From: Psychroflexus torquis ATCC 700755
GTDB lineage: Bacteria; Bacteroidota; Bacteroidia; Flavobacteriales; Flavobacteriaceae
NCBI RefSeq assembly: GCF_000153485.2
Contig: NC_018721.1
Coordinates: 1,426,001 to 1,490,000, forward strand
DNA: 64,000 nucleotides
Direction: 5' to 3'
In this document: positions 23,173 through 39,640 of the stretch, in pieces
Layout of the letters: each line of letters starts with the position of its first letter
Numbering within the stretch: position 1 is the first letter of the stretch
Notes under the pieces: model-generated
What the model saw: the letters and a program-made list of their open reading frames with translations, nothing else
What the model was told of the DNA's origin: nothing
Database searches by the model: none
Made by a program: the position numbers and the translations under genes

Positions 23173-23188
23173 CACGTAATTATAAAGA

Positions 23189-23262
23189 GGGGGATTAGCT
23201 CAGTTGGCTAGAGCGCCACGCTGGCAGCGTGGAGGCCATCGGTTCGAGTCCGATATTCTCCA
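23189..23262 (+). tRNA. tRNA-Ala (anticodon GGC)
   Basis: 74 nt cloverleaf. The acceptor stem pairs GGGGGAT with ATTCTCC, the D-arm is GCTC/GAGC, the anticodon stem is CCACG/CGTGG with loop CTGGCAG (anticodon GGC), and the T-arm is ATCGG-TTCGAGT-CCGAT. It decodes GCC/GCU alanine codons. The accessory cassette region begins right after its terminator. Confidence 0.97.
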
Positions 23263-23268
23263 CTCTTA

Positions 23269-23306: not shown

Positions 23307-23339
23307 CTTATTTACTGATTTGTACGATTTTTGTATAGT

Positions 23340-24286
23340 TGTTTGTCCTAAGTAAAGAATTCTTTGCTTTGTATCCCTTTTTATTCAGTTGCTTTTTTTG
23401 TGTGAGAATCTGCTGTTTTTTATCATTTTCCTTTAATTTAGGCAATACTCAGCTAAGGTTCTTTTTAGAACCGTTTTTAATGTTTGTATTCTAGTTTATC
23501 CTTTATAATTTGTTTGTAATCCTTGGGCGACCAGCGACTGTCATAGGTAAAAAGTGTGATTAAGGTTTCCTTTTTACAACTCGGACAACAGCGATGTAAG
23601 GACTTCTCTTGAGTGGCAAAGGTTAATATGTGTGCCAAGTTTTTATCTCTTAATTGCAATTGTAATAGCGGTAACTTCTCTTTTTTCCAACTGCTACTCA
23701 AAAACCCGTAATGCCTTATTCGAGTAAAGCCTTTGGAAAGAATATGAAATTGAAAACGCTGTATAAACTCTTTAGTGGAGAGTGTTAGTGTGGTTTTTTT
23801 AATAATCTTACAGCAATCATCAGTCGACGGATTACTAAGCAAATTTTGCATTTATTTTTACAACATCTCAACGAGGACATAACTTTAAGCTATCCGTTCT
23901 TAACGGTTAAATACCTTTAAATGATTAAAAAAGTAGTTTTTAAAAGTCTGTTTTAACTAATTTAGGAGACCAAGGCATAATTAATTTATAGCTTAAAATA
24001 ACAAAGCATCTAAAGCTTTAAAAACACCAAGACTAAGCCTTGGAGCATCCCACTCACTTTACCCTATGGAACGGGGAACAAGCTTATAGACATATCCGGG
24101 CTGATTTAGGTCATAATAGCTCCAAAGCGACAGAAATTTATGCTTGAGTTTTAGCGATTAATAACAAAACGCAAAAATTATATTAGATATTATACAAAAA
24201 AGTGTTAATTTAGTTTGTAATATGAAATAACACTTAATAGATATATGCTCTATACTGAAGATTTGAATAGGGTTTATACGGATGTT
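23340..24286 (+). mobile_element. Recombinase-remnant module, copy A (long form)
   Basis: A decayed mobile unit in four copies (here, 25474, 30115, 35264). It contains an IS91-type transposase fragment on the - strand (23477-23851) and then, on the + strand from 24066, the tail of a tyrosine recombinase (MERGTSL, then a frameshift, then LGHNSSKA-type sequence). It ends in the conserved AATAGGGTTTATACGGATGTT at 24266-24286, after which the first cargo begins. The segment 23852-24065 between the two fragments holds no gene. Confidence 0.75.
23477..23851 (-). pseudogene. IS91-family transposase, C-terminal fragment
   Basis: 124 codons open. STKEFIQRFQFHILSKGFTRIRHYGFLSSS is the conserved C-terminal block of IS91/IS801 Y2 rolling-circle transposases, followed by a CCPSCKKETL zinc pair. 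The catalytic Tyr region is missing, so it cannot transpose. A more decayed copy of the same fragment lies at about 30325-30760. Confidence 0.85.
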
Positions 24287-24305
24287 GTGAGTAATAGTAA
24301 AAACT

Positions 24306-25481
24306 ATGGAAGATAGTAAACAAGAAAAATCCAATTCTGATCAAGTTGAGCAAATTAACTTACTTCAAAAACAAATTGACCAAATTCAATTGAAGGTTTT
24401 TAGTGAACAAAAATCAAAATGGTATAAGAGCCCATCGCTTATTTTAAGCATCATAGCCCTATCAAGCTCATTATATTTTACTACTAAATCAATCATTGAG
24501 AATAAAGACACAAAGCAGCAGCAAACAGAGTCTGCAATAATCCAATCAATTAAGCAGTCGATAACTAATCTCTTAATTGAAGAAGAAAAACTTATTGCTG
24601 CCCAGTCAAACCAATATACTGAACTTAACGCCAAGAATAGCGCGTATATGATTTTTCAGGCAAAATCCGGCCCATTAATTGATAAAATATCTATTTCACT
24701 AAACGATAAAAGAATAGATAAAATTGAACCTAGTCTTCTTATTAATTATGGAAGATTCCTCACTGGTCAAGGAGATTTCTCTAAAGCTCATTGGGCTTTT
24801 GAAAATTCTCTTAAAGCAACGACTAACACTATGACTATGTTGCTTTGCTATAGATATTTAGCAAACATTATTGCCAATCCATCTTATGAAAATTTTGATT
24901 CATTAAAAAGTCGAGATTATAGATGGAAAACAGTACAACTCGCAAAAAGATTTTCTGGAGAATTAAAAAATGATTATCTATCTCGATCATATGAGCTTTG
25001 GGCTATAGATGAATATTACTTTTTTAAAAATAAACAAGAAGGGAATAGGCTTATTGACAGCTCAAAATTGTATGTTCAAAAATTTCAAGACTTGAATACG
25101 AGTAAAGTAGTTATAATGAATCGACTGATAGAGACTTATAACTACTATAACGAAATATTAGTAACCAACAACCTAGCAGGGGTATATTCTTTTTATTCAA
25201 GTGACAAGAAAAATGGAAAGGCTTACATCTCCACCAATAATATGGGTGGCTATATAACGCTGGATTTAATAAAGGATCGAAAACTTAATGGTAGAATATC
25301 GGGATCTGGAAACTTAATAAGTATAAAAGATTTGAAATTTGAGGTTAGTATTGTTAGTCAATCTAGCGACGCAAATGGTGGGACACTAATACTAAGCACC
25401 AGTGAAAACCGTAAACTTATAGGTTACTTATATGAATTTGGCAAAGAACCGGTAAAATACTATTTGACCAAAAGGAGATAA
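24306..25481 (+). CDS. Membrane-anchored protein with TPR-like region, unknown function (first cassette cargo)
   Basis: 391 aa. The N-terminal ~35 residues are a coiled coil (EQINLLQKQIDQIQLKVF). One membrane helix follows (SLILSIIALSSSLYFTTKSI, about 46-66), then a helical repeat region (about 95-280, with ARFLTGQGDFSKAHWAFENSLKA-like TPR spacing) and a beta-rich end of about 90 residues. No family recognised. It lies between recombinase-remnant modules A and B, begins just after GGATGTTGTGAG, and is AT-rich like other cargo. Confidence 0.75.
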   Translation: MEDSKQEKSNSDQVEQINLLQKQIDQIQLKVFSEQKSKWYKSPSLILSIIALSSSLYFTTKSIIENKDTKQQQTESAIIQSIKQSITNLLIEEEKLIAAQSNQYTELNAKNSAYMIFQAKSGPLIDKISISLNDKRIDKIEPSLLINYGRFLTGQGDFSKAHWAFENSLKATTNTMTMLLCYRYLANIIANPSYENFDSLKSRDYRWKTVQLAKRFSGELKNDYLSRSYELWAIDEYYFFKNKQEGNRLIDSSKLYVQKFQDLNTSKVVIMNRLIETYNYYNEILVTNNLAGVYSFYSSDKKNGKAYISTNNMGGYITLDLIKDRKLNGRISGSGNLISIKDLKFEVSIVSQSSDANGGTLILSTSENRKLIGYLYEFGKEPVKYYLTKRR

Positions 25482-25881
25482 CTAAGCATATGGCGTGCCG
25501 ATAGGCCAAAGCTATAGGATTTGATGACTGATCCAGGATTGCTGGTAAGGGGGAATTCGATGAGTTGGCAAGACCCTTACAACAGGAGAAGGGTGTTTTT
25601 AGAGTGCTTTGTATCCCTTTTTATTCAGTTGCTTATCTAAATAAGGTACTTTTTAGGGAGATCACCCTTTTATGAAACGGGGAACAAGCTTAAGACATAT
25701 CCGGGCTGCTTTAGGTCATAATTGCTCCAAAGCGGCAGAAATTTATACTAGAGTTTTATTGATGAATACAAAGTCTGTTGGATACTATATATAAAAGTGT
25801 TAGCTTAGATGAAAATAAAACAACGTCCAAAATAGATATATACCCTTTACTAAAGTTTTGAATAGGGTTTATACGGATGTT
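25474..25881 (+). mobile_element. Recombinase-remnant module, copy B (short form) with attC-like start
   Basis: Begins with a degenerate attC-like site (AGATAACTAAGCATATGGC ... GCTATAGGATTTGATGAC, 25474-25530). It continues with a ~140 bp spacer shared with copies C and D, then an intact 40-codon tail of a tyrosine recombinase (25672-25794, MKRGTSLRHIRAALGH with nucleophile Tyr in EIYTRV). It ends with a palindrome AACGTCC ... GGATGTT (about 25828-25881). The IS91 fragment found in copies A and C is absent. Confidence 0.8.
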
Positions 25882-25898
25882 ACCTGCAAGCGCAAAAA

Positions 25899-26405
25899 AT
25901 GAGAATACTGAATCTAAACATATTAGTAATACTTATAGCCAAATTGAGTTTCGCTCAAACTGTGGACTTTGATTTAATCAAATATAACGGACTGAATTTC
26001 TATTCTACTAAATCGGAAATAATAAGAAAACTTGGCAAACCGAAAAAGACATTTGACCCAAACTATGAATGTGGATTTTTATCAACAGAATCTCAAGACG
26101 GAGAATATTTAACTCTTGATTATGGAAAAATAAAATTCACTGGAAATAATAAAGAATTGTATGTTTTAGAACAGGTTGATTTTGAAAACGACAATTCAAT
26201 TGTTGTAAAGTATGGAAATCGGAATTTAACTTGTGAAACTAGTTTATTTGAATTAAAAGAAATATTTGGAAAGGTATTTTCTGAACATTTTGAAAATAAA
26301 TTAAGCGGAGCAATAGTCATTTATCAAGAAAAATCCGACGACGGAATACGAATTTGGATAAAAAATGGAAAGTTAGCTCAATTTGAATATTGGTCGCCGT
26401 GTTGA
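25899..26405 (+). CDS. Small secreted protein, unknown function (cassette cargo)
   Basis: 168 aa with signal peptide MRILNLNILVILIAKLSFAQ and two cysteines (Cys52 region, C-terminal SPC). No family recognised. The cassette holding it starts GTTACCTGC (25879-25887) and its attC-like R'' reads GCAGGTAAC (26415-26423), exactly complementary, which is the integron-cassette signature. Confidence 0.75.
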   Translation: MRILNLNILVILIAKLSFAQTVDFDLIKYNGLNFYSTKSEIIRKLGKPKKTFDPNYECGFLSTESQDGEYLTLDYGKIKFTGNNKELYVLEQVDFENDNSIVVKYGNRNLTCETSLFELKEIFGKVFSEHFENKLSGAIVIYQEKSDDGIRIWIKNGKLAQFEYWSPC

Positions 26406-26414
26406 AAAAAGCCT

Positions 26415-26551
26415 GCAGGTAACACTGTATAAAATTAATTGCTGGTTTTAGCCAACTTACGAAAGTCCAAACGGACTTTCTTGGTTCTTGTTTTATTTAC
26501 TAAATTAGTGGCTTAAAATACGCAACTAACATTATACCAAACGTTGGCAAC
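26415..26551 (+). repeat. attC-like recombination site s1
   Basis: 137 bp imperfect palindrome. R'' is GCAGGTAAC, L'' is TGTATAA, then a long inner stem with GAAAGTCC-AAAC-GGACTTTC, L' is TTATAC, and R' is GTTGGCAAC (26543-26551). The size is in the range of Vibrio VCR sites. It separates the secreted-protein cassette from the Shedu-like cassette. Confidence 0.7.
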
Positions 26552-26581
26552 AAGTAAAACAACAAACCTCTGAAATAATCA

Positions 26582-27751
26582 ATGACAATTCTTTTTATTT
26601 CTAATCAATCTAATTTAACGAAAGAGGAAGCCTTAAAAATATTTCAACCCTACACAGAAGAAAAGGACTTTCACTATTTTAAATCTTTATCAAAGGCAAA
26701 AGACTTCCTGACGAACAAACTAATTGAAAAAGACAAGCACCTTGATTTTATAATATCTGATTGGAAATTTCAGAATGATAATTCTAAAACTATTTTAAAT
26801 TGGATTAGAAATTCGTTAGAAAACTATTCTTCTAATAATTTTCAATTAAAATCTATACCTTTTTTACTTATAGAAGACCGAGAAAATCAATCTGCTACAA
26901 TATCAGACGGATTTGATGCTGTTATCGAAAATTTTCCGAATAACTATATAAATTTAAAACACAACATTACGAGTTCAATTAGAAAATGGAGAACTTCATT
27001 TGCGGATGATTTAGAACTCATAGGACTTGACCCAAAAAATAAGACAAACTATTCCAATCATCGTAAAACTTTTATTGCTTATTATAAGCTTAAAGTTTTA
27101 TCTAAAACATTTGTAGATAAAAAATCTAATTCTCTAAATTATATTTGGACAGATTTTGACTACACAAATCTTGTGGACTCAAATGAGCGCTTTGAAAAAA
27201 AGATGAAACAAACTTTAATTAAGCCAACAAAATATCTGGAAAAAGAGTTTCACGATTTTCTTCGAGATAATCCGACTTTTGTTAAAGGCGAAAACTTCAA
27301 TAAATTACTTTACGAAAAGCATCTTTATATAAATAATACTCGAAGATATAACGAACCAGATTTTATTAATAAACCTTTTGATTATGCGATTAGATATCCT
27401 GAAATTTTTGAGGTCAAACGACAATCCCAAAGACTCTTTTGGAAAAATAAAGACAAACTTTTATCAAAAGCTAAAAAAGGATTTGAACAAGTTGTTCGCT
27501 ATAAAAAATATATGGAATCCAAAAATGAAGCAAACGAATATTTTATTAAAAAATATTTAGACAAGGTTTATAATCAATATGAATATACGCTCTTGATGGG
27601 TTCGTCTGAAGAAAAAAGATATAATGAAAATCTAATTGAAGAGTTAAAAACTGATTTTAATTTTACAGAAGTAAATTTAGTAACCTATGAAGATTTATTA
27701 CATAAACACATTCGGCTTTGTGAGAGGCTAAATGAATTCAATATATTTTAA
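26582..27751 (+). CDS. Shedu-type (SduA, DUF4263) nuclease with receiver-like N-terminus
   Basis: 389 aa. Residues 1-135 look like a response-regulator receiver fold (MTILFISNQSNLTKEEALKI, DFIISDWKFQND with the phospho-acceptor-like Asp), but the lysine end is not clear. Residues ~215-389 carry the Shedu/DUF4263 nuclease pattern: EKEFHDFLRDNPTFV, Asp260 in EPDFIN, and Glu277-Val-Lys279 in FEVKRQ, a PD-(D/E)XK site. Shedu proteins protect against phages. It is a single-gene cassette bounded by attC-like sites s1 and s2. Confidence 0.8.
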   Translation: MTILFISNQSNLTKEEALKIFQPYTEEKDFHYFKSLSKAKDFLTNKLIEKDKHLDFIISDWKFQNDNSKTILNWIRNSLENYSSNNFQLKSIPFLLIEDRENQSATISDGFDAVIENFPNNYINLKHNITSSIRKWRTSFADDLELIGLDPKNKTNYSNHRKTFIAYYKLKVLSKTFVDKKSNSLNYIWTDFDYTNLVDSNERFEKKMKQTLIKPTKYLEKEFHDFLRDNPTFVKGENFNKLLYEKHLYINNTRRYNEPDFINKPFDYAIRYPEIFEVKRQSQRLFWKNKDKLLSKAKKGFEQVVRYKKYMESKNEANEYFIKKYLDKVYNQYEYTLLMGSSEEKRYNENLIEELKTDFNFTEVNLVTYEDLLHKHIRLCERLNEFNIF

Positions 27752-27770
27752 CATCGGAAAGAAAAACCCA

Positions 27771-27906
27771 GTTGTCAACACCGTATATAATTAATTGCTG
27801 GTTTTAGCCAATTTACTAAAGTCCTCGCGCACTTTCTATCTGTGGTTTATTTACTAACTTTAGTGCTTAAAACACGCAGCTAATCATACACAACAACGTT
27901 AGCAAC
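27771..27906 (+). repeat. attC-like recombination site s2
   Basis: 136 bp. R'' is GTTGTCAAC (27771-27779), differing at one base from the complement of its own cassette start GTTGGCAAC. L'' is CGTATATAA, R' is GTTAGCAAC (27898-27906). The inner sequence is closely related to s1 (TTAATTGCTGGTTTTAGCCA, TTTATTTACTAA). Confidence 0.7.
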
Positions 27907-27949
27907 AATGTAAGGCTAAAACCTAAAAATAGTAATTACAAATTAAAAT

Positions 27950-30106
27950 ATGTTAGTCAAAGAAGTCTTTAGTGAACTTTATAATGAATCTGTAACAACT
28001 AAAAATCCTACTTGGGAATTAGAATGTAATTGTGAGGATAAAACTACAATACAACTAGTTGAAACTCTTTTTCAATCAGAATTAATGGATTTATTCCAAA
28101 CAAGGAAAGCTTCTGAAAAAGTAATTCCAGTTATACATCGTCACTTCGACCAAATCATTAAACGAAAGAATAATAGCAAATCATATAAACATAAAGAAAT
28201 ATTTTCATACTTGCAATTAACTTGGGGAATATCAGCAACAACTCAATTAAATTGGGATGGAGAATTTGTTTATTGCTATGAAATATTTATGAAATCCGTT
28301 TTTGATAAAGTCTTCAAAAATGGAGAAACTTATGACTTAAAGGAAGTGTCAGTTTATAAATACCTTGAATCAAAAAACAAATATCTTTCACAATCGAAGG
28401 ATATTATTGAACAATGGTTTAGTCAGCTATATTATTATTCAAAATCATTTTCTGGTTTAAACGAATGGTGTGAATACTTTTTTGAAGAGGTCTATTATTA
28501 TTTAAACGAAGATTTTCAAATTGAATCATATCACCCACAATTATTATCTAACTTACTTTCTTGGTGTGAAGTGAATTTTAATTCTAAAGGCAGCAGAGTA
28601 ATAAGGAATATCATAGAAAGGGAATATCAGCAAATTAGATGGTCTGATACAGTAGAAAAAGTGACTATGAAAAGCTCATTAGGTCTTCAATTGCTTCTGT
28701 GTCAGAATTACAAAAACAATGAGAAAAAAAAATTGTTTACTGAGTTAGATAGCAATTTTAATTTCCATCCATTATCAAGAATGCAAGGCTTAATTGCATT
28801 ATGCATTGATGAAGAAAACTTAAATAACAACTATGACTTTCTAATAGATTCCATTAAGACTTATAATACGTTTTTGAACAAACAAAACCTCAATACTTTT
28901 GACTACATCTATCAAAGAGCAAGAGTATTTAAAAATCTGCTAAACGCCACAATATCAATTGCTATAGAAATAGGAAAAGGCGAATTAATTGATGACTTAC
29001 TTATAACATATTACGACATTAAAAATCCTCAAATAAAAGGATCCAACGCTTATATTGTACCTAATCAAAAAAATAATGTCGCTTATTGTTTAGCAAAACA
29101 AACAATTTTTGACGAAAAAGAATCACAGAAATTATTAATACAAATAGTCGATATTGAAAATAAGGCTTTTAACACATTTAGATTGCTTAAAGGAGGTATT
29201 AAACAAAAAATAACGCCAACCAATCAACCTATTGGATTACCAGTTCCTAAACTAGCAAAAGAATATGAAACTAAGCTTTTTGAACTTTATGATTTCAGTA
29301 AGTTAAATAATGAATTGCAACACCTAAACTCATTAAGTCAATTTGATTTTAATTCATTCCCTCTGCAAGCTCTTATGATTAGGTCTATTGAAAAAACTTT
29401 GCCTATTAACCTAAGTTTATCAGAAAAATTAGAGTTCTCTAGAGTACAAAAAATATTATTTTGGTCTGGTTTTAGTCAAACATCCGAAATCGAGATGGAA
29501 GCACTTAAAGAGATATTTGATTCTAAAAAAGTAACATTTGAAATTCACAATGAAGAAAACAGCGATTTAATAAGATTCCAAAGCAGAATAGATGAACTCG
29601 ATCCAGAAATAATTTGGATTTCCTCACATGGAGAATATAAACATTATGAACCAAATGTTTCTGAAATTAAACTATCTGAAAAAGAATCAATTGCCATTAG
29701 AGATTTCGAATTGCTAGTCAATAATAGTGACAAAAGACGTCTGTTATTTTTAAATATTTGTGAAGGAGGAGTTCACTCTCAAACAGGAGAATTTAAAAAT
29801 TTAGGATTCCCAAATTTATTAACTTCTGATAATCAAGATGTAATATCACATTTATGGATGGCTGAACCTCGCTTTGCATATGTCTTCGGAGTATTCTTTG
29901 CTTTAGGTATAACACATTTACAAAAAAACTTTTTTGACGCATTTCAATATTCGCTATTAAAAGTATTAAGCAATAAAACCTCTATCCTTGATGAATTGGA
30001 AAAACTTCCATTAGAATTAATTAACTTGAAAGAAAGAATAACTAATAATGATGGAACTGAATGGGGAAACATAATAACAACTGGAAGTCCTGTTTATAAC
30101 ATTTAA
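27950..30106 (+). CDS. CHAT-domain protease-like protein with long helical N-terminus
   Basis: 718 aa. The C-terminal ~200 residues form a CHAT (caspase-like) domain with the catalytic pair His560 (WISSHGEYKH) and Cys604 (LFLNICEGG), plus SHLWMAEPRFAYVFGVFF, typical of CHAT. The first ~480 residues are helical without a named domain. CHAT proteases act in effector and anti-phage systems such as type III-E CRISPR and gasdermin systems. No partner gene is next to it, so activation and target are unknown. The active-site pair is intact. Confidence 0.78.
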   Translation: MLVKEVFSELYNESVTTKNPTWELECNCEDKTTIQLVETLFQSELMDLFQTRKASEKVIPVIHRHFDQIIKRKNNSKSYKHKEIFSYLQLTWGISATTQLNWDGEFVYCYEIFMKSVFDKVFKNGETYDLKEVSVYKYLESKNKYLSQSKDIIEQWFSQLYYYSKSFSGLNEWCEYFFEEVYYYLNEDFQIESYHPQLLSNLLSWCEVNFNSKGSRVIRNIIEREYQQIRWSDTVEKVTMKSSLGLQLLLCQNYKNNEKKKLFTELDSNFNFHPLSRMQGLIALCIDEENLNNNYDFLIDSIKTYNTFLNKQNLNTFDYIYQRARVFKNLLNATISIAIEIGKGELIDDLLITYYDIKNPQIKGSNAYIVPNQKNNVAYCLAKQTIFDEKESQKLLIQIVDIENKAFNTFRLLKGGIKQKITPTNQPIGLPVPKLAKEYETKLFELYDFSKLNNELQHLNSLSQFDFNSFPLQALMIRSIEKTLPINLSLSEKLEFSRVQKILFWSGFSQTSEIEMEALKEIFDSKKVTFEIHNEENSDLIRFQSRIDELDPEIIWISSHGEYKHYEPNVSEIKLSEKESIAIRDFELLVNNSDKRRLLFLNICEGGVHSQTGEFKNLGFPNLLTSDNQDVISHLWMAEPRFAYVFGVFFALGITHLQKNFFDAFQYSLLKVLSNKTSILDELEKLPLELINLKERITNNDGTEWGNIITTGSPVYNI

Positions 30107-30114
30107 AAAAACTG

Positions 30115-31193
30115 CTTAGAATAACTAAGCATATGGCTTGCCGATAGGCCAAAGCTATATGATTTGTTGACTGACCCGGAATTGCTGGTAAGGGGAATTC
30201 GTCGATTAAGTATAGACCTTACAAGAGGAGAAGGTGGTTTTTAGAGTGCTTTGCATCCCTTTTTATTCAGTTGCTTATTTAAATAAGGTGTTTTTTAGTG
30301 AGATCATGCTTTTTTTGTGTGAGAATCTGCTGTTTTTTATCATTTTCCTTCAGTTTAGACAATATTCTGCTAAGGCTCTTTTTAGAACTATTTTTAATTT
30401 TTGCATTCTAATGTATCCTTTATAATTTGTTTGTAACCCTTTGGTGGAACGCGACTGTTAAAGGTGAAAAGTGTGATCAAGGTTTGCTTTTACAGACAGG
30501 ACAACAGCGATGTAAGGATTTCTCTTGAGCGGCAAAGGTTATGATGTGTGCCAAGTTTTTATCTCTTAATTGCAATTGTAATAACGGTAACTTCTCTTTT
30601 TTCCAACTGCTACTCAAGACCCGTAATGCCTTTGGAAAGAATATGAAGTTGGAAAATGCTGTATAAACTCTTTAGTGGAGAGTGTTAGTGTGGTTTTTTT
30701 AATAATCTTACAGCAATCATCAGTCGACGGACTACTAAGCAAAGTTTACATTTATTTTTACAACAGCTCTACGAGGACATAACTTTAGGCTATCCGTTCT
30801 TAACGGTTAAATGCCTTTAAATGATTAAAAAATAGTTTTAAAATGTCTGTTTTAACTAATTTAGGTGACCAAGACATAATTAATTTATAGCTTAAAATAA
30901 CAAAGCATCTAAAGATCAAGGTATCTCGCAAAGCTTTAAAAACACCAAGACTAAGCCTTGGAGCATCCCACACACATTATACCCTATGGAACGGGGAACA
31001 ATCTTAAGACATATCCGTGCTGCTTTATGTTATATAGCTCCAAAGCGGCAGAAATTTAAACTAGAGTTTTAGCGATGAATACAATGTCTGTTGGATAATA
31101 TATATGAAAGTGTTAGCTTACATGAAATAAAATAATGTCCTAAATAGATATATACCCTATAATGAAGTTTTGAATAGGGTTTATACGGATGTT
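30115..31193 (+). mobile_element. Recombinase-remnant module, copy C (long form) with attC-like start
   Basis: Starts with an attC-like site (30115-30174: AATAACTAAGCATATGGC, loop, GCTATATGATTTGTTGAC). It continues with the shared spacer, a decayed - strand IS91-transposase fragment (about 30325-30760) and the recombinase tail from 30986 (MERGTILRHIRAAL, then a 1-base frameshift). It closes with the palindrome AATGTCC ... CCCTAT ... ATAGGG ... GGATGTT ending at 31193. No complete gene lies inside. Confidence 0.8.
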
Positions 31194-31227
31194 GGGGCAC
31201 ATAAAGACGAGTATTAACTTTTAAATT

Positions 31228-31620: not shown

Positions 31621-32945
31621 AACCTTACTGTTTTATATTAATGCCGTTTGGAACTAAAACGGATGAAGGTGGAAAGACGGTAGAGTTTGATGAAATATAT
31701 AAGAAGATAATAAACCCTGCTGTAGTCAATGCTGGTTTAACTCCGATAAGAGCAGATGAAGAGATTGTGGGTGGAATAATCCATAAACCAATGTTCGAGC
31801 GATTGATGCTATGTGACTATGCAATTGCAGATTTAACGACTGCTAACGCTAATGTCTTTTATGAGTTAGGTGTACGTCATGGAATCCGTCCGCATAGCAC
31901 AATACTCACGTTTGCGGAAGGTATGCGGCTACCTTTTGATGTCGCCCCTTTAAGAGGATTACCCTATAAAATTGATGAGAATGGATTGCCATTGGATATT
32001 GATGATGCTATTGCAAACATTACGAAACGATTGGATGATTGTAGAACACCAATTGACGATAGTCCGGTCTATCAATTAATTTCTGATATGCCAAGAATGG
32101 AAATCGCTAGTTTAAAGACGGATACTTTTAGAGATTCAATCGAATATTCTAATTTATATAAGGAGAAACTAGAAAGTGCTCGAAAAATTGATAAAAAAGC
32201 GATATCTTCTATTGAAGCTGAGTTGGGTAGTATAATTGATGTTGACCCTGCAATTATTATTGATTTATTTCTTTCATATCGGTCAGTAGAAGATTGGACT
32301 TCAATGATAAATTTAGCTAATAAAATGACCCCTATTTTGGCTCAAGTGGTTTTAGTTCAAGAACAAATAGGATTTGCTTATAATCGTCTTGGAAATCACG
32401 AAAAGGCAGAATCTATTCTTAGTGAGGTAATTAAAAAATACGGTATAAGTAGTGAAACAAATGGCATTCTTGGTAGAGTTTATAAGGATTTATGGAAAAA
32501 ACACGAAGAAAAAGGAGAAAATGTCAGGGCAAGAGGCTTTTTAAAAAAATCAATTAAATGTTACTTGGAGGGCTTCCAATCCGACTGGCGTGATGCTTAC
32601 CCAGGAATTAATGCTGTAACGCTTATGGAAATGACAGAGCCTTTAGATAAACGTCAATCTAAATTATTACCTGTTGTACTATATTCTGTTGAAAGAAGAA
32701 TTTCAACAAAACACTCAGATTATTGGGATCATGCTACATTACTAGAACTGAATATTTTATCCAATGACTCTGAGAATGCAATAAATTCTCTTGAAAATGC
32801 TGTTACATTTATAAGAGAAAAATGGGAACCAAAAACTACTGCTAACAATATCAAATTAATTATTGAAGTAAGGCAAAAGAGGGGATATAAAACTAAATGG
32901 ATAGAAGATATATATAACGAATTAATAAAAGCAGGTGAAAACTAA
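31617..32945 (+). CDS. Nucleoside-deoxyribosyltransferase/TIR-like plus TPR protein (TRAFs-binding/DUF4071-like)
   Basis: 442 aa. Residues 1-145 have the pattern FILMPFG, CDYAIADLTTANANVFYELGVRHGI, common to NDT/TIR-related domains thought to act on nucleotides. Residues ~160-440 are TPR-like helices resembling the DUF4071 (MAP3K TRAFs-binding) region, for example AFNRLGNHEKAESILSEVIKKYG-type spacing. It is coupled by ATGA overlap to the TIR-like gene, so sensor-effector signalling is likely. The DUF4071 assignment is tentative. Confidence 0.72.
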   Translation: MKPYCFILMPFGTKTDEGGKTVEFDEIYKKIINPAVVNAGLTPIRADEEIVGGIIHKPMFERLMLCDYAIADLTTANANVFYELGVRHGIRPHSTILTFAEGMRLPFDVAPLRGLPYKIDENGLPLDIDDAIANITKRLDDCRTPIDDSPVYQLISDMPRMEIASLKTDTFRDSIEYSNLYKEKLESARKIDKKAISSIEAELGSIIDVDPAIIIDLFLSYRSVEDWTSMINLANKMTPILAQVVLVQEQIGFAYNRLGNHEKAESILSEVIKKYGISSETNGILGRVYKDLWKKHEEKGENVRARGFLKKSIKCYLEGFQSDWRDAYPGINAVTLMEMTEPLDKRQSKLLPVVLYSVERRISTKHSDYWDHATLLELNILSNDSENAINSLENAVTFIREKWEPKTTANNIKLIIEVRQKRGYKTKWIEDIYNELIKAGEN

Positions 32946-32950
32946 TATCT

Positions 32951-33082
32951 GCATATAACAATGTATGTAGTTTATGGCTAGTAAGTGTCAATAATCAAGT
33001 TTATAGCATTAAGTAAATTCATCTAAAATTGAAAGTTTGGTGCTCCAAAAACCGCCAAAAAACCATATACTTAACGTTGTGC
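32951..33082 (+). repeat. attC-like recombination site s3
   Basis: 132 bp. R'' is GCATATAAC (32951-32959), L'' is GTATG, L' is CATATAC, R' is GTTGTGC (33076-33082). The interior differs from s1/s2. It ends the TIR/TPR cassette. Confidence 0.6.
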
Positions 33083-34020
33083 AATATATACAAAAACAAC
33101 CCAAATAAATGATTAAAAGAATATTTCATCCTATTGGACAAGGAGCATTTTACTCTGAAAGACACGAAAATTTTAATGTCGTTTTTGACTGTGGAAATTG
33201 GAAAAAAACCAAACAATCTGAAATGTTAGTAAAGCAAAGTTTCAAAAAAGAAGATGTAATAGACATTCTATTCATTTCACATTTTGACAGCGACCACGTT
33301 AATAGAATTGAAGTTCTCAAAAATCATTGTGCTAACATAAAAATGGTAGTCTTACCTCTATTAAATCCGGAGGAAATACTCTTGTTATCGAATTTCTATA
33401 GAAATATAGACAATAGCATTGTTCCGTTAATTACCGAACCTAATCAGTTTTTTGGAGAAAACACCAAAATAATTTATGTACAGCCTTCAGAAAACGAAGA
33501 AACAAACAATGATTTAAATTTAGAACAAGAAACTCTTGAAAATAATCAATCCATAGAAAGCGGAACTAAAATTAGCAAAGGTTCTAATTGGATTTTTATT
33601 CCATATAATTATGAATATAAAACAAGGAACCAAGAATTATTAGACCTATTAAAAGAGCATTCAATCGATGTATCCAAATTAAAAAAGGATTTATCATATT
33701 CAATTGCAAATAGAACAAAATTACGTTTAATTCATAACAAATTAAGTGGTAAAATAAACCAAAATTCAATGTTTTTATATTCTGGACCATTAGAACAAAA
33801 AAACAATAACTTATCTATTCAAAGACATATAAAACCTTTTTGTCCAATTCCTTTTCCATTTTCAATTTTGAGAGAACATAACAATAGAGTTTCTTGTGTT
33901 TATACTGGAGATGGCGACTTAAATAAGGTTAGAATAAACATTGTTTATAGAAAATATTGGAATTTAGTTGGTACAATTCAAATTCCTCATCACGGAGATA
34001 TAAAAACTTATAAATCGACT

Positions 34021-35084
34021 CACTAGCATCCGAAAGTTTTTAGAAAGAAGTAAGAAACATGTTTCTACCCCAATGTTTACATTAAAAAGCTCACTTTACC
34101 CAGAAAATAAGTCCCTCTCTAACACTAATACTTTTTGTGGTGAAATTGTCACTTTACGAACACCTTCTCTGACTTCATTGCACACATAGTCTAGTGATAA
34201 GTAGTGATATAAGCAAAATCTCACTTTTTCTGACAAATTAGAAAAAGCAACTGCTTTTTTGGAAATAGTTCGCTTTATAAGCTCTAAAAGTAGATAATTT
34301 ATCAGCGCTACATATATTTGCGATTTTACTGCATTCTCACTGGTTCCCCAGAAGGTTTTTACTTGTAGGTTTTGTTTTAAAGCTTTAAAAAACAATTCAA
34401 TATCCCAACGTTTCTTATATAATGCTGCAATGGTATTGTATTCCCAATCAAGTTGGTTGGTAATAATGGCAATTACTTTGTTTTCATCTTCTTTATAAAC
34501 ATGTACCAATCTTAGTTTATGCTTTGAAATACCCGTTTCTATCGCCCTACCTGATGTAAGTTGTATTATTTCATCTTTAAGAATATGTTGGTCAACATCA
34601 TCAGCAAGCTCCAGCTCCTCTATCGTTTCATACAAAGTGTTGGACTTAATTCTAGTAACAAATACATTTTCTGCTTTTATTCTATTGAGCATTAATTCAA
34701 AATCGAAATAAGCTCTGTCTTCAACTATAATAGTGTCTTTAGGGAAAATCAGTTGCTTTAATCCATATCTGTCATGAACCTTTGCTTCTGTTATATTTAC
34801 TACATCAGGTATCATTAAATTATAATCCCAGCTAGTGTGCAATTTAATACCTCCTTTAGCTGTCCGAAACTCTGCCCAATCAAACATAGCCAGACACAAG
34901 GAAATCGTTGAGCTATCTATTAGTTTAACTACCTTGCCCTTAATCTCTTCTATAATATGGGTGTTATGATGCTGTTTTAGCACCGATTTATAGTGACTTA
35001 ATAAACGATAATACAAGCTCTCAAACACCTGCCAGTCACGCTTTTTATTGCCATCGCTCATTGTAGAACGAGCAGGGCTTTGGG
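34021..35084 (-). mobile_element. IS4-family insertion sequence with 9 bp target duplication
   Basis: About 1064 bp between direct repeats AAATCGACT (34012-34020 and 35085-35093), inside an MBL-fold gene. Its ends (CACTAGCATCCGAAAG left, CCCAAAGCCCTGCTCG right) match only weakly as inverted repeats, so it may be an atypical or end-damaged copy. It carries one transposase gene. Confidence 0.75.
34096..35061 (-). CDS. IS4-family transposase (short N-terminus)
   Basis: 321 aa from ATG 35061 (MSDGNKKRDWQVFESLYYRLL). The DDE core is visible: VKLIDSSTISL (first Asp), VEDRAYFDF (second Asp) and the YREK signature YKKRWDIELFFKALKQ. Compared with the usual ~380-400 aa, the N-terminal ~75 residues are missing. 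An upstream in-frame extension only reads into the host gene beyond the target duplication, so it is probably not part of the IS. Activity is doubtful. Confidence 0.8.
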   Translation of the reverse strand: MSDGNKKRDWQVFESLYYRLLSHYKSVLKQHHNTHIIEEIKGKVVKLIDSSTISLCLAMFDWAEFRTAKGGIKLHTSWDYNLMIPDVVNITEAKVHDRYGLKQLIFPKDTIIVEDRAYFDFELMLNRIKAENVFVTRIKSNTLYETIEELELADDVDQHILKDEIIQLTSGRAIETGISKHKLRLVHVYKEDENKVIAIITNQLDWEYNTIAALYKKRWDIELFFKALKQNLQVKTFWGTSENAVKSQIYVALINYLLLELIKRTISKKAVAFSNLSEKVRFCLYHYLSLDYVCNEVREGVRKVTISPQKVLVLERDLFSG

Positions 35085-35263
35085 AAATCGACTGATATAT
35101 CTGATAAAAATTATTTTTGTCCAATATCAGTAGGACTGAATAATACTTATGGTCATCCTTCAACAACTGTAATTGCAGATTTAAATGGGAATAAAAATAT
35201 TCCAATTCAAGTAACAGAAGACATAAATGATTTATACTTTGAAATTATTAAATGAAATACGAG

Positions 35264-35672
35264 GCATAATAACTAAGCATATGGCTTGCCGATAGGCCAA
35301 AGCTATATGATTTGTTGACTGATCTGGGATTGCTGGTAAGAGGGGAATTCGATGAGTTGGCAAGATCCTTACACGAGGAGAAGGTTGTTTTTAGAATGCT
35401 TTGCATCCCTTTTTATTCAGTTGCTTATCTAAATAAGGTACTTTTTATGGAGATCACGCTTTTATGGAACGGGGAACAAGCTTAAGACATATCTGGACTG
35501 CTTTAGGTCATAATAGCTCCAAAGCGGCAGAAATTTATACTAGAGTTTTAGTGATGAATACAAAGACCGTTGGATAATATATATGAAAGTGTTAGCTTAG
35601 ATGAAAATAAAATAACATCCTAAATAGATATATACCTATAATAAAGATTTGAATAGGGTTTATATAGATGTT
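35264..35672 (+). mobile_element. Recombinase-remnant module, copy D (short form) with attC-like start
   Basis: Starts with the clearest short attC-like site of the set (35264-35320: R'' GCATAATAAC, L'' CATATGGC, L' GCTATATG, R' GTTGACT). It holds a 37-codon recombinase tail at 35464-35577 (MERGTSLRHIWTALGH, LGHNSSKAAEIYTRV). It ends with palindrome arms AACATCC ... AGATGTT at about 35672. Length matches copy B (about 409 bp). Confidence 0.82.
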
Positions 35673-35690
35673 ACATGTAATTAAATTAGA

Positions 35691-36221
35691 ATGACAGTTT
35701 TCATCATATTCATTGGTCTTTTTTTTGCTGCAACAGGCGGATATGCGATCATTCATAGCATTCAAAAACTTGGGAACGACAAATCTGACTCAAGCCTTGA
35801 TATTAAGGGCTTTAAAATAAGTGCCCCAGCAGGTTTTATTTATGGAATTGCTTCGTTCGTAATAGTTGTTCTACTAATAAAATTCAATTCTGATATTGTT
35901 CCTTCATCAAATTCAATGGATAGTGGTTTTTATGAGCTGACTTTTAACGATGATTCCACTTTAATGAATGTAAAGTTTGATTCTCAAAGACCTGCATCAA
36001 TATTTAATGGGAAAGTCTTGATTCAAAAAGATGGGTGGAATATTCAATTCGATGGAGTTTTGAGCGTTTCTGAAAATAGAATAGTTCCTAATTTTATGAA
36101 AAAATCAATCGAATTTAACAAAGGAGCTAAATTTTATATCATCACAAAAGACTCCACAACTTGGGGTGTCAATGTGATTAGAACTCGTAGTCCAATTGAA
36201 CTTGAAATTTATAAAGAATAA
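35691..36221 (+). CDS. Two-helix membrane protein, unknown function (cassette cargo)
   Basis: 176 aa. A membrane helix at the N-terminus (VFIIFIGLFFAATGGYAIIH), a second at about 55-70 (FIYGIASFVIVVLLIKF), then an outer beta-rich domain of about 100 residues. No family recognised. The cassette starts GTTACATGT (35670) and its R'' reads ACACCTAAC, complementary at 7 of 9 bases. Confidence 0.7.
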   Translation: MTVFIIFIGLFFAATGGYAIIHSIQKLGNDKSDSSLDIKGFKISAPAGFIYGIASFVIVVLLIKFNSDIVPSSNSMDSGFYELTFNDDSTLMNVKFDSQRPASIFNGKVLIQKDGWNIQFDGVLSVSENRIVPNFMKKSIEFNKGAKFYIITKDSTTWGVNVIRTRSPIELEIYKE

Positions 36222-36225
36222 AGAA

Positions 36226-36284
36226 ACACCTAACACTGAATATAAAACAGCAAAAAAGCCATTTCATACTCTTAACGTTGGCAG
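36226..36284 (+). repeat. attC-like recombination site s4
   Basis: About 59 bp. R'' is ACACCTAAC (36226-36234) and R' is GTTGGCAGT (36277-36285). The inner arms are weak. Size matches short integron attC sites. Confidence 0.5.
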
Positions 36285-36296
36285 TAAGCCCTAAAA

Positions 36297-37085
36297 ATGA
36301 ATTTAGTCAAATACAATCTTTTAAATTATATCCCAGAGCTCATTAACTTTATCGGAGAAGAAAAATTTCCATGGGACGATGTTGAGAAAAAGTTTAATCG
36401 AAAAATTAATCAAAGAGTTTCTAAGAAAAATGGAGATTCAATTGTAATCGAAGCTTCAATTTTTGACCAAATTATATCTATAAAAAAAGGTGATTCCGAT
36501 TATATAGGAATGATTGACTTTTATAACAAATTATTCTATCAATTAAAATTGCTATTAAATCAAGAAGAAAAGAAGTTAATACTTAGAACAATTAAGAATT
36601 TACTCGTTTCATTCGACTCAAAATATCTAAATTATTTAGGTGAACTTTCAGCATTATATCAATTAAAAAGAACCAACAATTTTATTTTGTTAGAAGTTGA
36701 AAAAAATTTGCCAAATGGTAAATCGATTGACTTTGATATGACGATTCAAGATCCGAAAATGAGAGTGTTGATTGAGGTTATAAACATTCAAATAAATCCT
36801 AAAAAGGTTGAAAATAATGCAAATAGTATTAGAAGATTCATCAACGGCAGATTAGAAAAAAAAATAACTGACAAAAAAAAGAATTTAATTGACAACTGGA
36901 ATATTCATTTGGTTCCTGTAATCTGGGGAGGAAATGAACAACTTGAAATTTACCACGAATATTTTAAAACAAATTCACCTGATCTGCCACTAAGTTATGT
37001 ACCATTAGCGTTTTTAACTTATTATGATCAAAATGGTAATTATTTTCCAAAATTTGGTTCTATAAGTACATTATTTGACTCATAA
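36297..37085 (+). CDS. PD-(D/E)XK-like protein, unknown function (cassette cargo)
   Basis: 262 aa. The first ~120 residues are helical. YLGELSALYQLKRTNNFILLEVEKNL, KSIDFDMTIQDPKMRVLIEVINIQI and PVIWGG follow in a restriction-endonuclease-like alpha/beta order, with the acidic DFD and IEV residues placed as in PD-(D/E)XK nucleases, although the lysine after the Glu is not present as ExK. It may be an inactive or divergent member. Single-gene cassette. Confidence 0.6.
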   Translation: MNLVKYNLLNYIPELINFIGEEKFPWDDVEKKFNRKINQRVSKKNGDSIVIEASIFDQIISIKKGDSDYIGMIDFYNKLFYQLKLLLNQEEKKLILRTIKNLLVSFDSKYLNYLGELSALYQLKRTNNFILLEVEKNLPNGKSIDFDMTIQDPKMRVLIEVINIQINPKKVENNANSIRRFINGRLEKKITDKKKNLIDNWNIHLVPVIWGGNEQLEIYHEYFKTNSPDLPLSYVPLAFLTYYDQNGNYFPKFGSISTLFDS

Positions 37086-37093
37086 AAAGGCCT

Positions 37094-37276
37094 ACTTCCA
37101 ATAACGTGCATAAAACACAGATAGTAAAGATTTATTTATCTTTACAAAAACCGCCAAATTTTTAAATTTGGCTTTAAAATAAAAAGATAAAACAAAATAA
37201 AAAGTTTTGGCTAATTGCTTAATCGGAAGTTTATTATTTTTAATTCCCGAATTAACCATAACCGAGACGTTGGCAA
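37094..37276 (+). repeat. attC-like recombination site s5
   Basis: About 183 bp. R'' region ACTTCCAATAAC (37094-37105) and R' GTTGGCAAA (37269-37277). An inner hairpin CCAAATTTTTAAATTTGG is seen. It is the least regular site of the series. Confidence 0.45.
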
Positions 37277-37294
37277 AATTAAAAGCAGACAATT

Positions 37295-37552
37295 ATGAAA
37301 CAACAAGACATCGACCAGTTTTTACTTGAACATCCAATCACATACGATTCTGTTCGGGTGGACTTTGTTGACAGCTCTTTCAAAGTTGGGTTCTTCGAGA
37401 ATCTCGTTGGTGACTTTGACGACCTAAGACGAAAAAATCAATGGCGGTTCATTGAAAAAAACTACTCTGTGGCATACAGGGACAGTGACAATGACCCAAA
37501 ACACACGACAATCATCAACGGAGACACCGTTGACAAACTGACAATTTTGTAA
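37295..37552 (+). CDS. Small protein of unknown function (cassette cargo)
   Basis: 85 aa, acidic, starting MKQQDIDQFLLEHPITYDSV. No signal peptide, no recognised family. It occupies its own short cassette between sites s5 and s6, which supports that it is a real gene. Confidence 0.55.
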   Translation: MKQQDIDQFLLEHPITYDSVRVDFVDSSFKVGFFENLVGDFDDLRRKNQWRFIEKNYSVAYRDSDNDPKHTTIINGDTVDKLTIL

Positions 37553-37582
37553 AAACCTAAAAGGACATAAAATGAAAAAACG

Positions 37583-37653
37583 TTGCACAACAAAACCTAT
37601 AAGCAATATCGCCCTACGGGTCGCTATTGCTCATAGCTAAACCGTTAGTAAAC
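37583..37653 (+). repeat. attC-like recombination site s6
   Basis: About 70 bp and the clearest stem-loop: R'' TTGCACAAC (37583-37591), L'' CTATAAGCAATATCG, a 10 nt loop, L' CGCTATTGCTCATAG (13 of 15 pairs), R' GTTAGTAAA (37644-37652). Confidence 0.7.
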
Positions 37654-37667
37654 ATTGAAAAGAACAC

Positions 37668-38577
37668 ATGCGAGAAACTAAACCTACACTTTTACTATTT
37701 GATGATTTAATTGAAACAATTGAAATTGCATTAAAAGAACTTGGTTCAATTTATTCTAAGCTTAATTCTTTTGATAAAGAGGAATATATATTAAAAGGAA
37801 CGTTTGTTTATTTAATATCTCTTTTTGAATCATCAATTACAGAATGTTTAAAACGATATTTAATAGCCTTCCCAAGTGAGATAACAGATGGTCAAGTAAC
37901 TGGAAAGTAAATATGTGATAGACACTGTTTTTGCATCCGATGTTATAGAATTTATTATTGATGATTTTATTCAAAAATACACTTATGAAAGTGTTAATGA
38001 AATAATGTCTCGGACATTTAAATTATTAGGAATCGATTCGAATAAAATTAAGTTTGATAATAAAGGTTTAATTGAAAAGAAAGAACGTCGTAATATACTT
38101 GTTCACAATAATTTGAAAATAGACAAGAAGTATATCCGAATTACTAAATGTGAACCCAACAGAATAAGAAAACAACTTGAAATTAGTAACGATTACATTA
38201 TTGAAACTATTGAGTTAATTCAAGGTATTTTGAGTCAATTTAAAAATGAACTTTCGATAAAATATTCTCAATACAATAGGTCTCAGTTATTGAGGAGTGT
38301 CTGGGGCTATGTTTTTGACTCAGAACTTTTAAAATATGATGACTATTGGAATGAAAGTAGCTCGTTCATTTTTGAGAACAAAAAGAAATTTGATATTAAC
38401 TGGTTGTCTTCAGGCGAAAAAACAATGTTAGCATATTGGATTCAGCATTATTCCACTGGAATAGTTGATCGCTATTTTAAATTTGAAGATATGAATATGG
38501 CTGTTTACAGTATGAAACATATGAATTTTCTAGTTGAATTTTTCAATAAGTATCCTTTTATATTAAAGCATGGCTAA
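37668..38577 (+). pseudogene. HEPN-like (MAE_28990/MAE_18760-type) gene with a frameshift
   Basis: Two consecutive open frames, 37668-37910 (80 codons) and 37915-38577 (220 codons), are offset by one base near 37900-37915. Joined, they give about 300 aa: a helical start (FDDLIETIEIALKELGSIYS), ILKGTFVYLISLFESSITE, then ERRNILVHNNLKIDKKY, which fits the HEPN RxxxxH motif (R-N-I-L-V-H). HEPN proteins are often RNases in defence or toxin systems. The cassette start GTTAGTAAA and R'' TTTGCTAAC match at 8 of 9 bases. The frameshift could be a real mutation or a sequencing error. Confidence 0.65.
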
Positions 38578-38583
38578 ACAACA

Positions 38584-38627
38584 TTTGCTAACAATAGCTC
38601 ATAAAGCATAGGCTTGCCGTTATGGGT
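38584..38627 (+). repeat. attC-like recombination site s7
   Basis: About 45 bp. R'' TTTGCTAAC (38584-38592), short inner arms AATAGC / GCATAGGC, R' GTTATGGG (38619-38626). Confidence 0.5.
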
Positions 38628-38649
38628 TATTAAAAAATTTCTGCAGAAA

Positions 38650-39576
38650 ATGAATTGGCAAGAATATGAAAAATATGTATTTGAAAATATAAAAGACAGT
38701 TTTCCAAATGCTGTTTGCATATTTAATAGTAAAATATTAGGAAAGTATTCCAAAGGCACTAGACAATGTGACGTCCTTGTAAAACAAAATATAAAAGGTA
38801 AAGAACATCTAATTTTAATTGACGCTAAATATTATTCAAAAAAAATTGATGTAAAAAGTGTAGAAGATTTTATTGGAATGTCAAATGACGTAAACGCAGA
38901 TGAGGGTATTCTCGTAACACCACACGGATATACTAAACTTGCATATTATCGAGCCGAAAATGACCCAAGTCAAATTTTACTTGACATATTGACATTAGAG
39001 CAATTAAAAAACTATCAAGGATATTGCGCTATTCCTTATGCTGGAAATCACGCAGTATTATTATCTCCTGCTTTTGGTTGGGTGATTGATGGAAGACAGA
39101 TGTTTGGAAGTTTAGCTTTAAGTTACAGAAAAGGGTTTGATTTCGACAAAGCGTTTGCCGAAAAAGAATTAATCTACTTTAACATATGGAATACCAAAGA
39201 AGATAAGTTAACAGTTGTAAAATTATTTGAAAATCAAATAGAATTGCTTTCAGAAAGTTCAAATGTTTTAGAGTCTAATATTGAGAATGTGGAAGTTAAT
39301 GGAAAGAAATTAACAACACGTAAGACCATAATTGAAAATTACATATCTCCTGAATATGCATGTGCCATTGAATACCCAAATTTTATTTTCTTTGGAGTGT
39401 TATTGTCCGAGAATAATAGAGAAAGTGTAAATTTCAATAAATTAAAGCAAATGATTTCCAAAACACTCCCTATAAAAGTTAAACATTCAAAAAAAACAAC
39501 ACACAACAAAGTACTGTGGCTAAAAACAAGTAAAAACTTATTAATTTTTCACTTGTTTTTATATTCTTTATCATAA
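38650..39576 (+). CDS. Mrr-like restriction endonuclease (cassette cargo)
   Basis: 308 aa from MNWQEYEKYVFENI. An upstream in-frame ATG at 38614 lies inside the attC-like site, so it is not used here. The N-terminal ~105 residues show the Mrr_cat nuclease order: RQCDVLVKQNIKG with Asp, LILIDAKYYSKKIDVKSVEDFIG with D-A-K, then DEGILVTPHGYTKLA. The C-terminal ~190 residues are not assigned. It is expected to cut foreign, perhaps modified, DNA. Single-gene cassette; the attC expected after it is not seen. Confidence 0.75.
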   Translation: MNWQEYEKYVFENIKDSFPNAVCIFNSKILGKYSKGTRQCDVLVKQNIKGKEHLILIDAKYYSKKIDVKSVEDFIGMSNDVNADEGILVTPHGYTKLAYYRAENDPSQILLDILTLEQLKNYQGYCAIPYAGNHAVLLSPAFGWVIDGRQMFGSLALSYRKGFDFDKAFAEKELIYFNIWNTKEDKLTVVKLFENQIELLSESSNVLESNIENVEVNGKKLTTRKTIIENYISPEYACAIEYPNFIFFGVLLSENNRESVNFNKLKQMISKTLPIKVKHSKKTTHNKVLWLKTSKNLLIFHLFLYSLS

Positions 39577-39640
39577 ATCAACCCTGATTTTGCAATGGCA
39601 AAGGCTTATTTTAAGAGGGTATTGCAGACCGCAATTAATG

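Follow-up and report, generated by a model that had tools for sequence, protein, structure and literature searches.

We identified a gene-cassette array in a 64,000-nucleotide stretch of the genome of the sea-ice bacterium Psychroflexus torquis ATCC 700755 (C1:1426001-1490000 of a single contig of 4,321,832 bases; hereafter the window). About eleven cassettes (A0 and A to J), each with one or two genes, are arranged head to tail on the + strand at window positions 23365-39576, with attC-like sites between them (Table 1). A tRNA-Ala gene bounds the array on the left and an IS110-type transposase gene (39641-40159, - strand) on the right, consistent with the initial annotation, which had described some ten + strand units next to a tRNA-Ala gene. 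That annotation also saw no intact integrase, which is true of the array, where four truncated copies are found, but not of the genome, which has an intact copy at C1:3774739-3775878 (- strand). We consider it very probable that the array belongs to an integron-like system of Bacteroidia in which an integrase without the IntI-specific additional domain (I2) inserts cassettes at attI, and in which the R'' core of each attC bears the imprint of its own cassette start. Sequence comparison establishes the cassette boundaries, own-start complementarity, hairpin covariation, linkage and orientation of sites and integrases, their co-occurrence, and the missing domain. The system seems integron-like in layout and cassette logic, and by the usual definition it is not an integron.

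The decisive sign of cassette organization is that R'' complements the start of the cassette to which it belongs and not that of the next one. Excision of an integron circle joins the start of a cassette to its own attC, hence R'' is expected to pair with that start, and such complementarity is known for integrons. We compared the reverse complement of R'', rc(R''), with cassette starts in two tests. The first took sites found by regular expression in the window, in other arrays of the same genome and in named relatives (38 rows): rc(R'') matched 4.8 of 8 bases of the own start and 2.7 of 8 of the next start (own better in 25 rows, equal in 2, worse in 11; Wilcoxon p = 5.5e-5; maximum of 10,000 permutations, 3.34). 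Seven of the 11 failing rows cover stretches of over 2 kb, in which a site might have been missed. The second test employed 98 of 100 covariance-model sites from 20 stretches of other genomes, chosen for containing sites or integrases and none used to build the model; one cut-off site and one opposite-strand double were left out, and five sites had no clear core. For 57 consecutive cassettes shorter than 2.5 kb at 14 loci, the own start matched at 5.9 and the next at 2.5 of 8 bases (own better in 52, equal in 2, worse in 3; permutation maximum, 3.32), and a match of six or more bases was seen with the own start in 48/57 cassettes and with the next in 0/57. Within the window, the own-start match is clear in cassettes A (start GTTACCTGCAAG compared with rc(R'') GTTACCTGCAGG), B, I and J, and partial by eye in F, G and H.

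The sites themselves fit the earlier description of palindromes with AAC and GTT cores that follow the genes. A covariance model (R1), built from 30 sites that include attC A of the window and several others of the same genome, returned the attC sites of cassettes A, B, D and H and a lone site at 62325-62486 (E ≤ 0.1, 318,512 bases). Shorter sites at 36232-36279, 37103-37271 and 38590-38621 were missed by R1 and were read by eye. The covariance-model check proposed in the initial annotation came out in favor of the sites: they were found in the window and in relatives, and at 16 loci of relatives a strict regular expression detected 22 forward and 0 reverse-strand sites, far above the mean of 0.15 in shuffles. 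A looser detector (52 forward, 10 reverse and 10 shuffled hits at 23 loci) carried real signal but was noisy, so the strict expression and the covariance model were used instead. No Rfam family matched the attC-like sites of the window at gathering scores. Only 5 of 59 distinct cassette starts fit GTTRRRY, the consensus of the canonical integron R' core; the core here is GTTRNNNNNMA.

In the alignment of the 30 sites, AAC, TATA, TAC and CGTT parts are almost invariant. The 17 consensus pairs of the hairpin are paired in 95.4% of cells versus 81.3% in column shuffles, a comparison that favors the structure, pairing most of all, because the consensus was derived from the same sequences. Changes on both sides of a pair occurred in 66 cells versus 23.1 in shuffles (3-17 when the pairing was slid by one to three columns), the covariation score was 0.336 versus 0.099 in shuffles, and compensatory changes were found at six of the seven pairs of the inner helix. 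Thermodynamic folding was convincing at two loci, L075 (z = -4.73) and L069 (z = -2.61).

We noted two further sites of this kind. The lone site at 62325-62486 (98.4 bits) lies outside the array, between acyltransferase-like and small membrane-protein genes (named by eye), and looks decayed since its right core reads CATTGCC in place of GTT. In the array of the intact integrase (L038, 13154-13271, - strand), a match to group II intron D1-D4 (101.9 bits) lies between the halves of one attC, on the strand of the cassettes; IIC-attC introns are described in the opposite orientation (PMC7923331, accessible text).

Cassettes follow a recurrent head. The longest direct repeats of the window region belong to four composite modules, R1 to R4. 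At the end of every module stand, in this order, the 3' part of a tyrosine recombinase gene, ~100 bases, and GGGTTTATACGGATGTT or a near variant, and a new cassette begins thereafter. Four attI heads with recombinase 3' fragments sit within the array, which is four short arrays, each with its own head, joined head to tail. In head R1, the integrase comprises a promoter-like part, an internal deletion and a C-terminal part, with the crossover G|TT at 24284-24286. Genome-wide, the composite repeat has 45 matches. By eye, these comprise 17 heads, which hold an integrase 3' end with attI, and 27 tails, which hold a terminal array site. GATGTT stands at the attI end of 17/17 heads (16 in register, one after a deletion; by eye), followed by 17 different sequences. 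Similarly, 23 of 25 named relatives have, by eye, a GTT-ended site at most 170 bases past the integrase match, and unlike sequence thereafter. In 13 of the 20 stretches, prepared by hand, we compared every GTT up to 1.5 kb from the integrase stop codon with the cassette start that the first attC predicts. This start was found 33-148 bases past the stop in 11 of 13 loci (9 or 10 of 11 bases matched); the exceptions were L250 (9/11, at 638 bases) and L237 (only 7/11). We also observed that attI often holds a near-perfect palindrome ending a few bases ahead of GTT (L234, L235, L238 and L240), and that the attI palindrome arms of P. torquis and Aequorivita resemble attC L boxes by eye.

Only one of the 17 heads has an intact integrase gene. 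It encodes 379 residues, its 3' end faces its cassettes (an IrrE-type gene and a DUF4411, PIN-like gene, then more), and its product is 97% identical to one integrase of Psychroflexus gondwanensis. Against TIGR02249, the integron-integrase model, it scored 187.7 bits in two pieces and did not pass the cut-off of 265. The search for an IntI-type recombinase elsewhere in the genome, which the initial annotation had suggested, gave none: no candidate among the 7 scored of 39 exceeded the cut-off, and the intact integrase lacks the IntI-specific domain. Its alignment to IntI4 (PDB 2a3v) splits in two around the stretch that holds the additional domain. We measured the distance from the first catalytic arginine to the HxLRH motif. 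Of the 49 relatives measured, 44 have 71-96 residues here (median 89), and 20 of the 28 canonical IntI measured have 131 each; the one measurable of three other recombinases of the same genome has 96. Compared with IntI, the family thus lacks 35-60 residues. A quick maximum-likelihood tree of 80 proteins placed the 49 relatives on one side of a branch (Shimodaira-Hasegawa-like approximate likelihood ratio test, 91) and the 28 IntI on another (100); the three other recombinases were long-branched and unsurely placed. The best NCBIfam match of the intact integrase is NF040815 (194 bits, below its 220-bit cut-off), a family named 'site-specific tyrosine recombinase/integron integrase' that all 17 members of set A1 match at E ≤ 1e-20; the name proves no function. 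A structure model (mean predicted local distance difference test score, 78.4; predicted template modeling score, 0.50) matched XerA and IntI4 best in the PDB and was not used for the missing-domain claim. Its N-terminal domain, at residues ~9-75, is a candidate for the part that takes the place of I2; the catalytic tyrosine is Y348. A 119-residue open reading frame upstream of the integrase was considered as a piece of IS91 transposase and ruled out by BLASTP. In a plasmid collection, 336 records matched at E ≤ 1e-30, three of which cover 80% of the query in one place. Among the matches listed, recombinases of Acinetobacter plasmids, and one called TnpF in FJ012881 (a plasmid from an uncultured bacterium), share ~49% identity with the integrase across residues 122-366.

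The survey covered 295 genomes of the class Bacteroidia (GTDB naming). Sites were present at E ≤ 0.001 in at least 145/295, a lower bound given the strict filters and the scoring of at most ten candidates per genome, and an integrase match at E ≤ 1e-40 in 212/295 (at most six candidates scored per genome). An integrase was called strong at a best E of ~3e-54 or better (153 genomes), a cut chosen after two E-value modes had been seen. Sites and a strong integrase co-occurred in 109 genomes, with sites only in 36, integrase only in 44 and neither in 106 (odds ratio 7.3; Fisher p = 1.3e-15, uncorrected for kinship of the genomes). All 27 sites within 20 kb of an integrase, at 18 integrases, lay downstream and on the same strand; this count drew on ~138 of ~150 listed site rows (own genome and genome G053 excluded) and 70 of ~150 listed integrase rows, hand-copied. 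Canonical IntI exceeded the cut-off in 84 of 296 genomes of the phylum, yet in 1 of 73 members of the class (our count). Around 30 canonical IntI (110 kb in total, ~3.7 kb per locus), model R1 detected no site, although, having been built on the present kind, it may miss others. The finding is real and larger than first described: the suggestion that this lineage's version is little studied is strongly supported, and the sites are not confined to flavobacteria but span the class.

Among the matches listed, attC sites are shared between genomes and cassette genes are not. With window positions 25860-30140 (cassettes A to C) as the DNA query, matches were obtained in 131 of 199 Flavobacteriaceae genomes, each of another genus. 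Those listed outside the own genome covered attC stretches, some with tens of bases more, and none covered a cassette gene; the best, with identities of up to 94%, spanned the site from the AAC of R'' through its R' core GTT (query 1917-2041 and 562-687), and the body of attC B recurs in other genera. In P. gondwanensis (genome G741, contig C1, 290,486 bases), the orthologous tRNA-Ala locus is colinear with window 22603-23370, and a short array with two other cassettes lies ~8.5 kb beyond the colinear flank. No cassette gene of the window was found in the next 20 kb of that locus (blastn, 1e-10).

We propose that a tyrosine recombinase related to Xer and IntI (~380 residues), which has an extra domain at its N terminus but no I2, would insert circular cassettes at attI, 33-148 bases past its stop codon and on the same strand where measured. 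Each cassette would open at G|TT and end in an attC made of R'' (the complement of its own start), an L''/L' stem and a final G. The integrase probably catalyzes cassette recombination, and attC may act as a folded single strand. In P. torquis, the platform has multiplied to 17 heads, often beside IS91-family elements, and the one intact integrase could serve all 17 in trans.

Several observations weigh against this reading. Recombination, circles or cassette movement were not observed. The own-start match is absent in four of the 11 window cassettes (A0, C, D and E); A0, C and E finish at the common terminal site, and an insertion sequence (IS) cuts E. Two of the 25 relatives (L084 and L094) have no attI by eye. 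There are 36 site-bearing genomes without a strong integrase and 44 with a strong integrase but no detected sites, and the cut for a strong integrase was set post hoc. Two of five covariation measures were not clearly above shuffles, namely pairs changed on both sides (8 versus 6.4; 33/500 shuffles reach 8) and further pair types (16 versus 13.8; 61/500 reach 16), and kinship may inflate the other three. Lastly, folding of three window sites was weak or absent (z = -1.88, -0.80 and +0.64), hence our use of covariation.

Alternatively, the system might be real but its recombinase might use sites in double-stranded form, like Xer at dif or in pdif modules, with the palindrome being incidental. 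We regard this as unlikely since compensatory changes in the inner stem, the one-way orientation of sites near integrases and the own-start imprint in R'' fit a folded attC better, even though I2, the proposed handler of folded single-stranded attC, is absent and XerCD, which lacks I2, can integrate a folded phage genome (both from the accessible text of PMC4792948).

The initial annotation had favored the layout of an integron or of a cluster of attC sites lacking an integrase (CALIN), defined as at least two attC sites within 4 kb and no integrase nearby (PMC9668308 and PMC8618304, accessible text). Own-start pairing upholds the cassette organization, and the window sites, as detected with a purpose-built covariance model, do cluster without an intact integrase in the array. 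That the array is a remnant of an ordinary integron, whose IntI has the additional domain, is nevertheless very improbable. Core and arm layout, cassette polarity and defense cargo would suit such a remnant, and Bacteroidota are listed among integron phyla (accessible text of PMC8618304 and PMC9668308), but the integrase fragments of the array match the family without the additional domain, TIGR02249 is passed neither by the intact integrase nor by any of the 7 candidates scored out of 39, GTTRRRY is rare among the starts, and R1, built on the present kind of site, detected nothing in the ~3.7 kb searched at each of the 30 canonical IntI loci.

An IS91/ISCR-type rolling-circle element with cargo, whose ends would be the palindromes and which would involve no cassette recombination, accounts for the multiplied heads and tails, many of the heads having a common breakpoint, but not for own-start complementarity in arrays of other genomes; we find it hardly credible, even though Y2_Tnp genes or fragments lie 277-545 bases from a terminal site at 11 of 13 places. 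Least credible of all are selfish palindromes scattered between genes by chance (similar to repetitive extragenic palindromes or miniature inverted-repeat transposable elements): attC bodies are up to 94% alike in many genera beside non-matching genes, but a self-moving palindrome would pair with the neighboring R' and not with a start 0.17-2.5 kb upstream (unless that pattern stems from the choice of cores), and 27/27 sites near integrases are on the integrase strand.

The integron-like system proposed here can be compared with known ones. Canonical integrons (class 1 and the sedentary ones of Vibrio) have in common with it an integrase, attI, a 3' attC with R and L boxes, an inferred G|TT crossover, own-start complementarity of R'', cassette polarity, and defense and toxin-antitoxin cargo. 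By contrast, the integrase here has no IntI-specific domain (median landmark distance 89 versus 131 residues) but an extra N-terminal domain, points to its cassettes and forms a separate tree group, and the core is GTTRNNNNNMA rather than GTTRRRY. Complex class 1 integrons carry an arrangement comparable to that of the window, with ISCR elements: there too, a Y2 transposase stands beside integron parts and platform fragments are multiplied, whereas integrase and sites differ here. In spirochaete integrons, whose IntI has the additional domain, intI faces the cassettes, an orientation that the present integrase shares. The accessible text of PMC9668308 speaks of a 'reverse orientation' of intI there. 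For the 'integron-like' subgroup of tyrosine recombinases, the accessible text of Smyshlyaev et al. 2021 calls the insertion essential for integron function and ascribes no cassette array to members without it.

Taken more broadly, the results make it fairly probable that a second integron class extends across Bacteroidia, in which folded attC sites are handled without I2 and which tools that require I2 have mostly missed; in Psychroflexus, one intact integrase would serve ~17 dispersed attI sites. The class would be either a sister lineage that never had I2 or an independent invention of cassette capture. The IntegronFinder 2.0 survey notes that only integrases without arrays were earlier known in Bacteroidetes, and then one complete integron, in Salinibacter ruber (PMC9024848, accessible text). 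In the literature searched, with most subscription journals and all preprints outside it, we found no description of Bacteroidia cassette arrays with a domain-less integrase. If our reading is true, about half of the sampled Bacteroidia genomes bear cassette sites of another type; the system would offer a reservoir of defense and toxin-antitoxin genes, and P. torquis would offer a natural case of a single integrase with many attI sites. The system would also test the model of Escudero et al., according to which I2 and the extrahelical attC bases evolved together and I2 prevents a second cleavage (PMC4792948, accessible text), by asking how strand choice and single cleavage arise without I2. 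It further raises the question of what form the first integrons had.

The cargo had been read as immune and conflict genes, and for some cassettes this is borne out. Cassette C encodes a 718-residue protein with a BovA match (PADLOC); cassette D, a ThsB-type TIR protein (31228-31620) and a protein with MAP3K_TRAF_bd and TPR-S domains and a weak match to a TIR effector (31617-32945); cassette E, a metallo-beta-lactamase-fold protein weakly similar to LmuA; and cassette J, an Mrr-like nuclease. The remaining cassette proteins of the window have no Pfam match, hence a defense role appears likely for some cassettes only.

Table 1. Features of the cassette array and its left neighbor (window coordinates; R'' and R' are the attC cores).
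Feature	Position	Strand	Evidence
tRNA-Ala (GGC), left neighbor of array	23189..23263	+	ARAGORN; Rfam tRNA, 64.7 bits
Head R1: IS91 transposase fragment, decayed integrase, attI	23365..24286	+	repeats; comparison by eye with intact head
IS91 transposase fragment in head R1	23480-23851	-	Y2_Tnp, 39.8 bits
Cassette A0, gene 24306-25481 (391 aa, no family match)	24284..25476	+	
Composite R2: terminal array site, IS91 flank, integrase 3' end (RHIRAALGHNCSKAAEIYTRVL), attI, crossover 25879-25881	25477..25881	+	
Cassette A, gene 25899-26405 (168 aa, no family match)	25879..26542	+	
attC A, R'' AAC 26421-26423, R' GTT 26543-26545	26409..26558	+	R1, 121.8 bits; among its 30 training sites
Cassette B, gene 26582-27751 (389 aa, no family match)	26543..27897	+	
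attC B, R'' AAC 27777-27779, R' GTT 27898-27900	27765..27913	+	R1, 114.5 bits
Cassette C, gene 27950-30106 (718 aa)	27898..30120	+	PADLOC BovA, 5.8e-97; CHAT below cut-off
Composite R3: terminal site (R' GTTGACTGA at 30166), IS91 remnant, decayed integrase, attI, crossover 31191-31193	30121..31193	+	
Cassette D, genes 31228-31620 and 31617-32945	31191..33075	+	Pfam, PADLOC
attC D, R'' AAC 32957-32959, R' GTT 33076-33078	32945..33091	+	R1, 66.2 bits
Cassette E, metallo-beta-lactamase-fold gene 33109-34026, IS-interrupted	33076..35268	+	weak LmuA-like match
DDE transposase interrupting cassette E	34096..35205	-	DDE_Tnp_1, 66.6 bits
Composite R4: terminal site (R' GTTGACTGA at 35314), integrase 3' end, attI, crossover 35670-35672	35269..35672	+	
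Cassette F, gene 35691-36221 (176 aa); short site R'' AAC 36232-36234, R' GTT 36277-36279	35670..36276	+	
Cassette G, gene 36297-37085 (262 aa); site R'' AAC 37103-37105, R' GTT 37269-37271	36277..37268	+	
Cassette H, gene 37295-37552 (85 aa); site 37577-37659	37269..37643	+	R1, 35.3 bits
Cassette I, genes 37668-37910 and 37915-38577; site R'' AAC 38590-38592, R' GTT 38619-38621	37644..38618	+	
Cassette J, Mrr-like restriction endonuclease gene (in frame 38650-39576); R'' AAC 39505-39507 (by eye), right core unrecognizable	38619..39640	+	Mrr_cat, 40.4 bits

IS91-family elements may have helped to multiply the truncated platforms, as suggested by the position of Y2_Tnp matches beside tails and by the shared breakpoint of many heads in the integrase gene (query position ~195). 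The genome has 15 Y2_Tnp matches at what are, by eye, 13 distinct places; the distances to tails given above refer to the nearer end, with positions compared by eye. A Y2 transposase with a Zn-binding domain is encoded by two adjoining open reading frames (PF04986 and PF14319) of L006, and the window array holds only a fragment. In 21 of the 22 tails with a displayed junction, the variable cassette part stops at an A ahead of ATAACTAAG. Compared with the own start by eye, in L038 only, such ends suggest either that three bases were inserted or that attC bodies were exchanged at the core.

Around the array, we noted further copies of the IS110-type transposase gene at several places in the genome and in P. 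gondwanensis (G741). Part of the tRNA-Ala gene is repeated (55 bases, 89% identical) at 23012-23066, 179 bases upstream of the gene itself, and pieces of 23053-23094 have several copies in genome G740. At the far left of the window, an S-adenosylmethionine (SAM) riboswitch is located at 923-1023 on the - strand.

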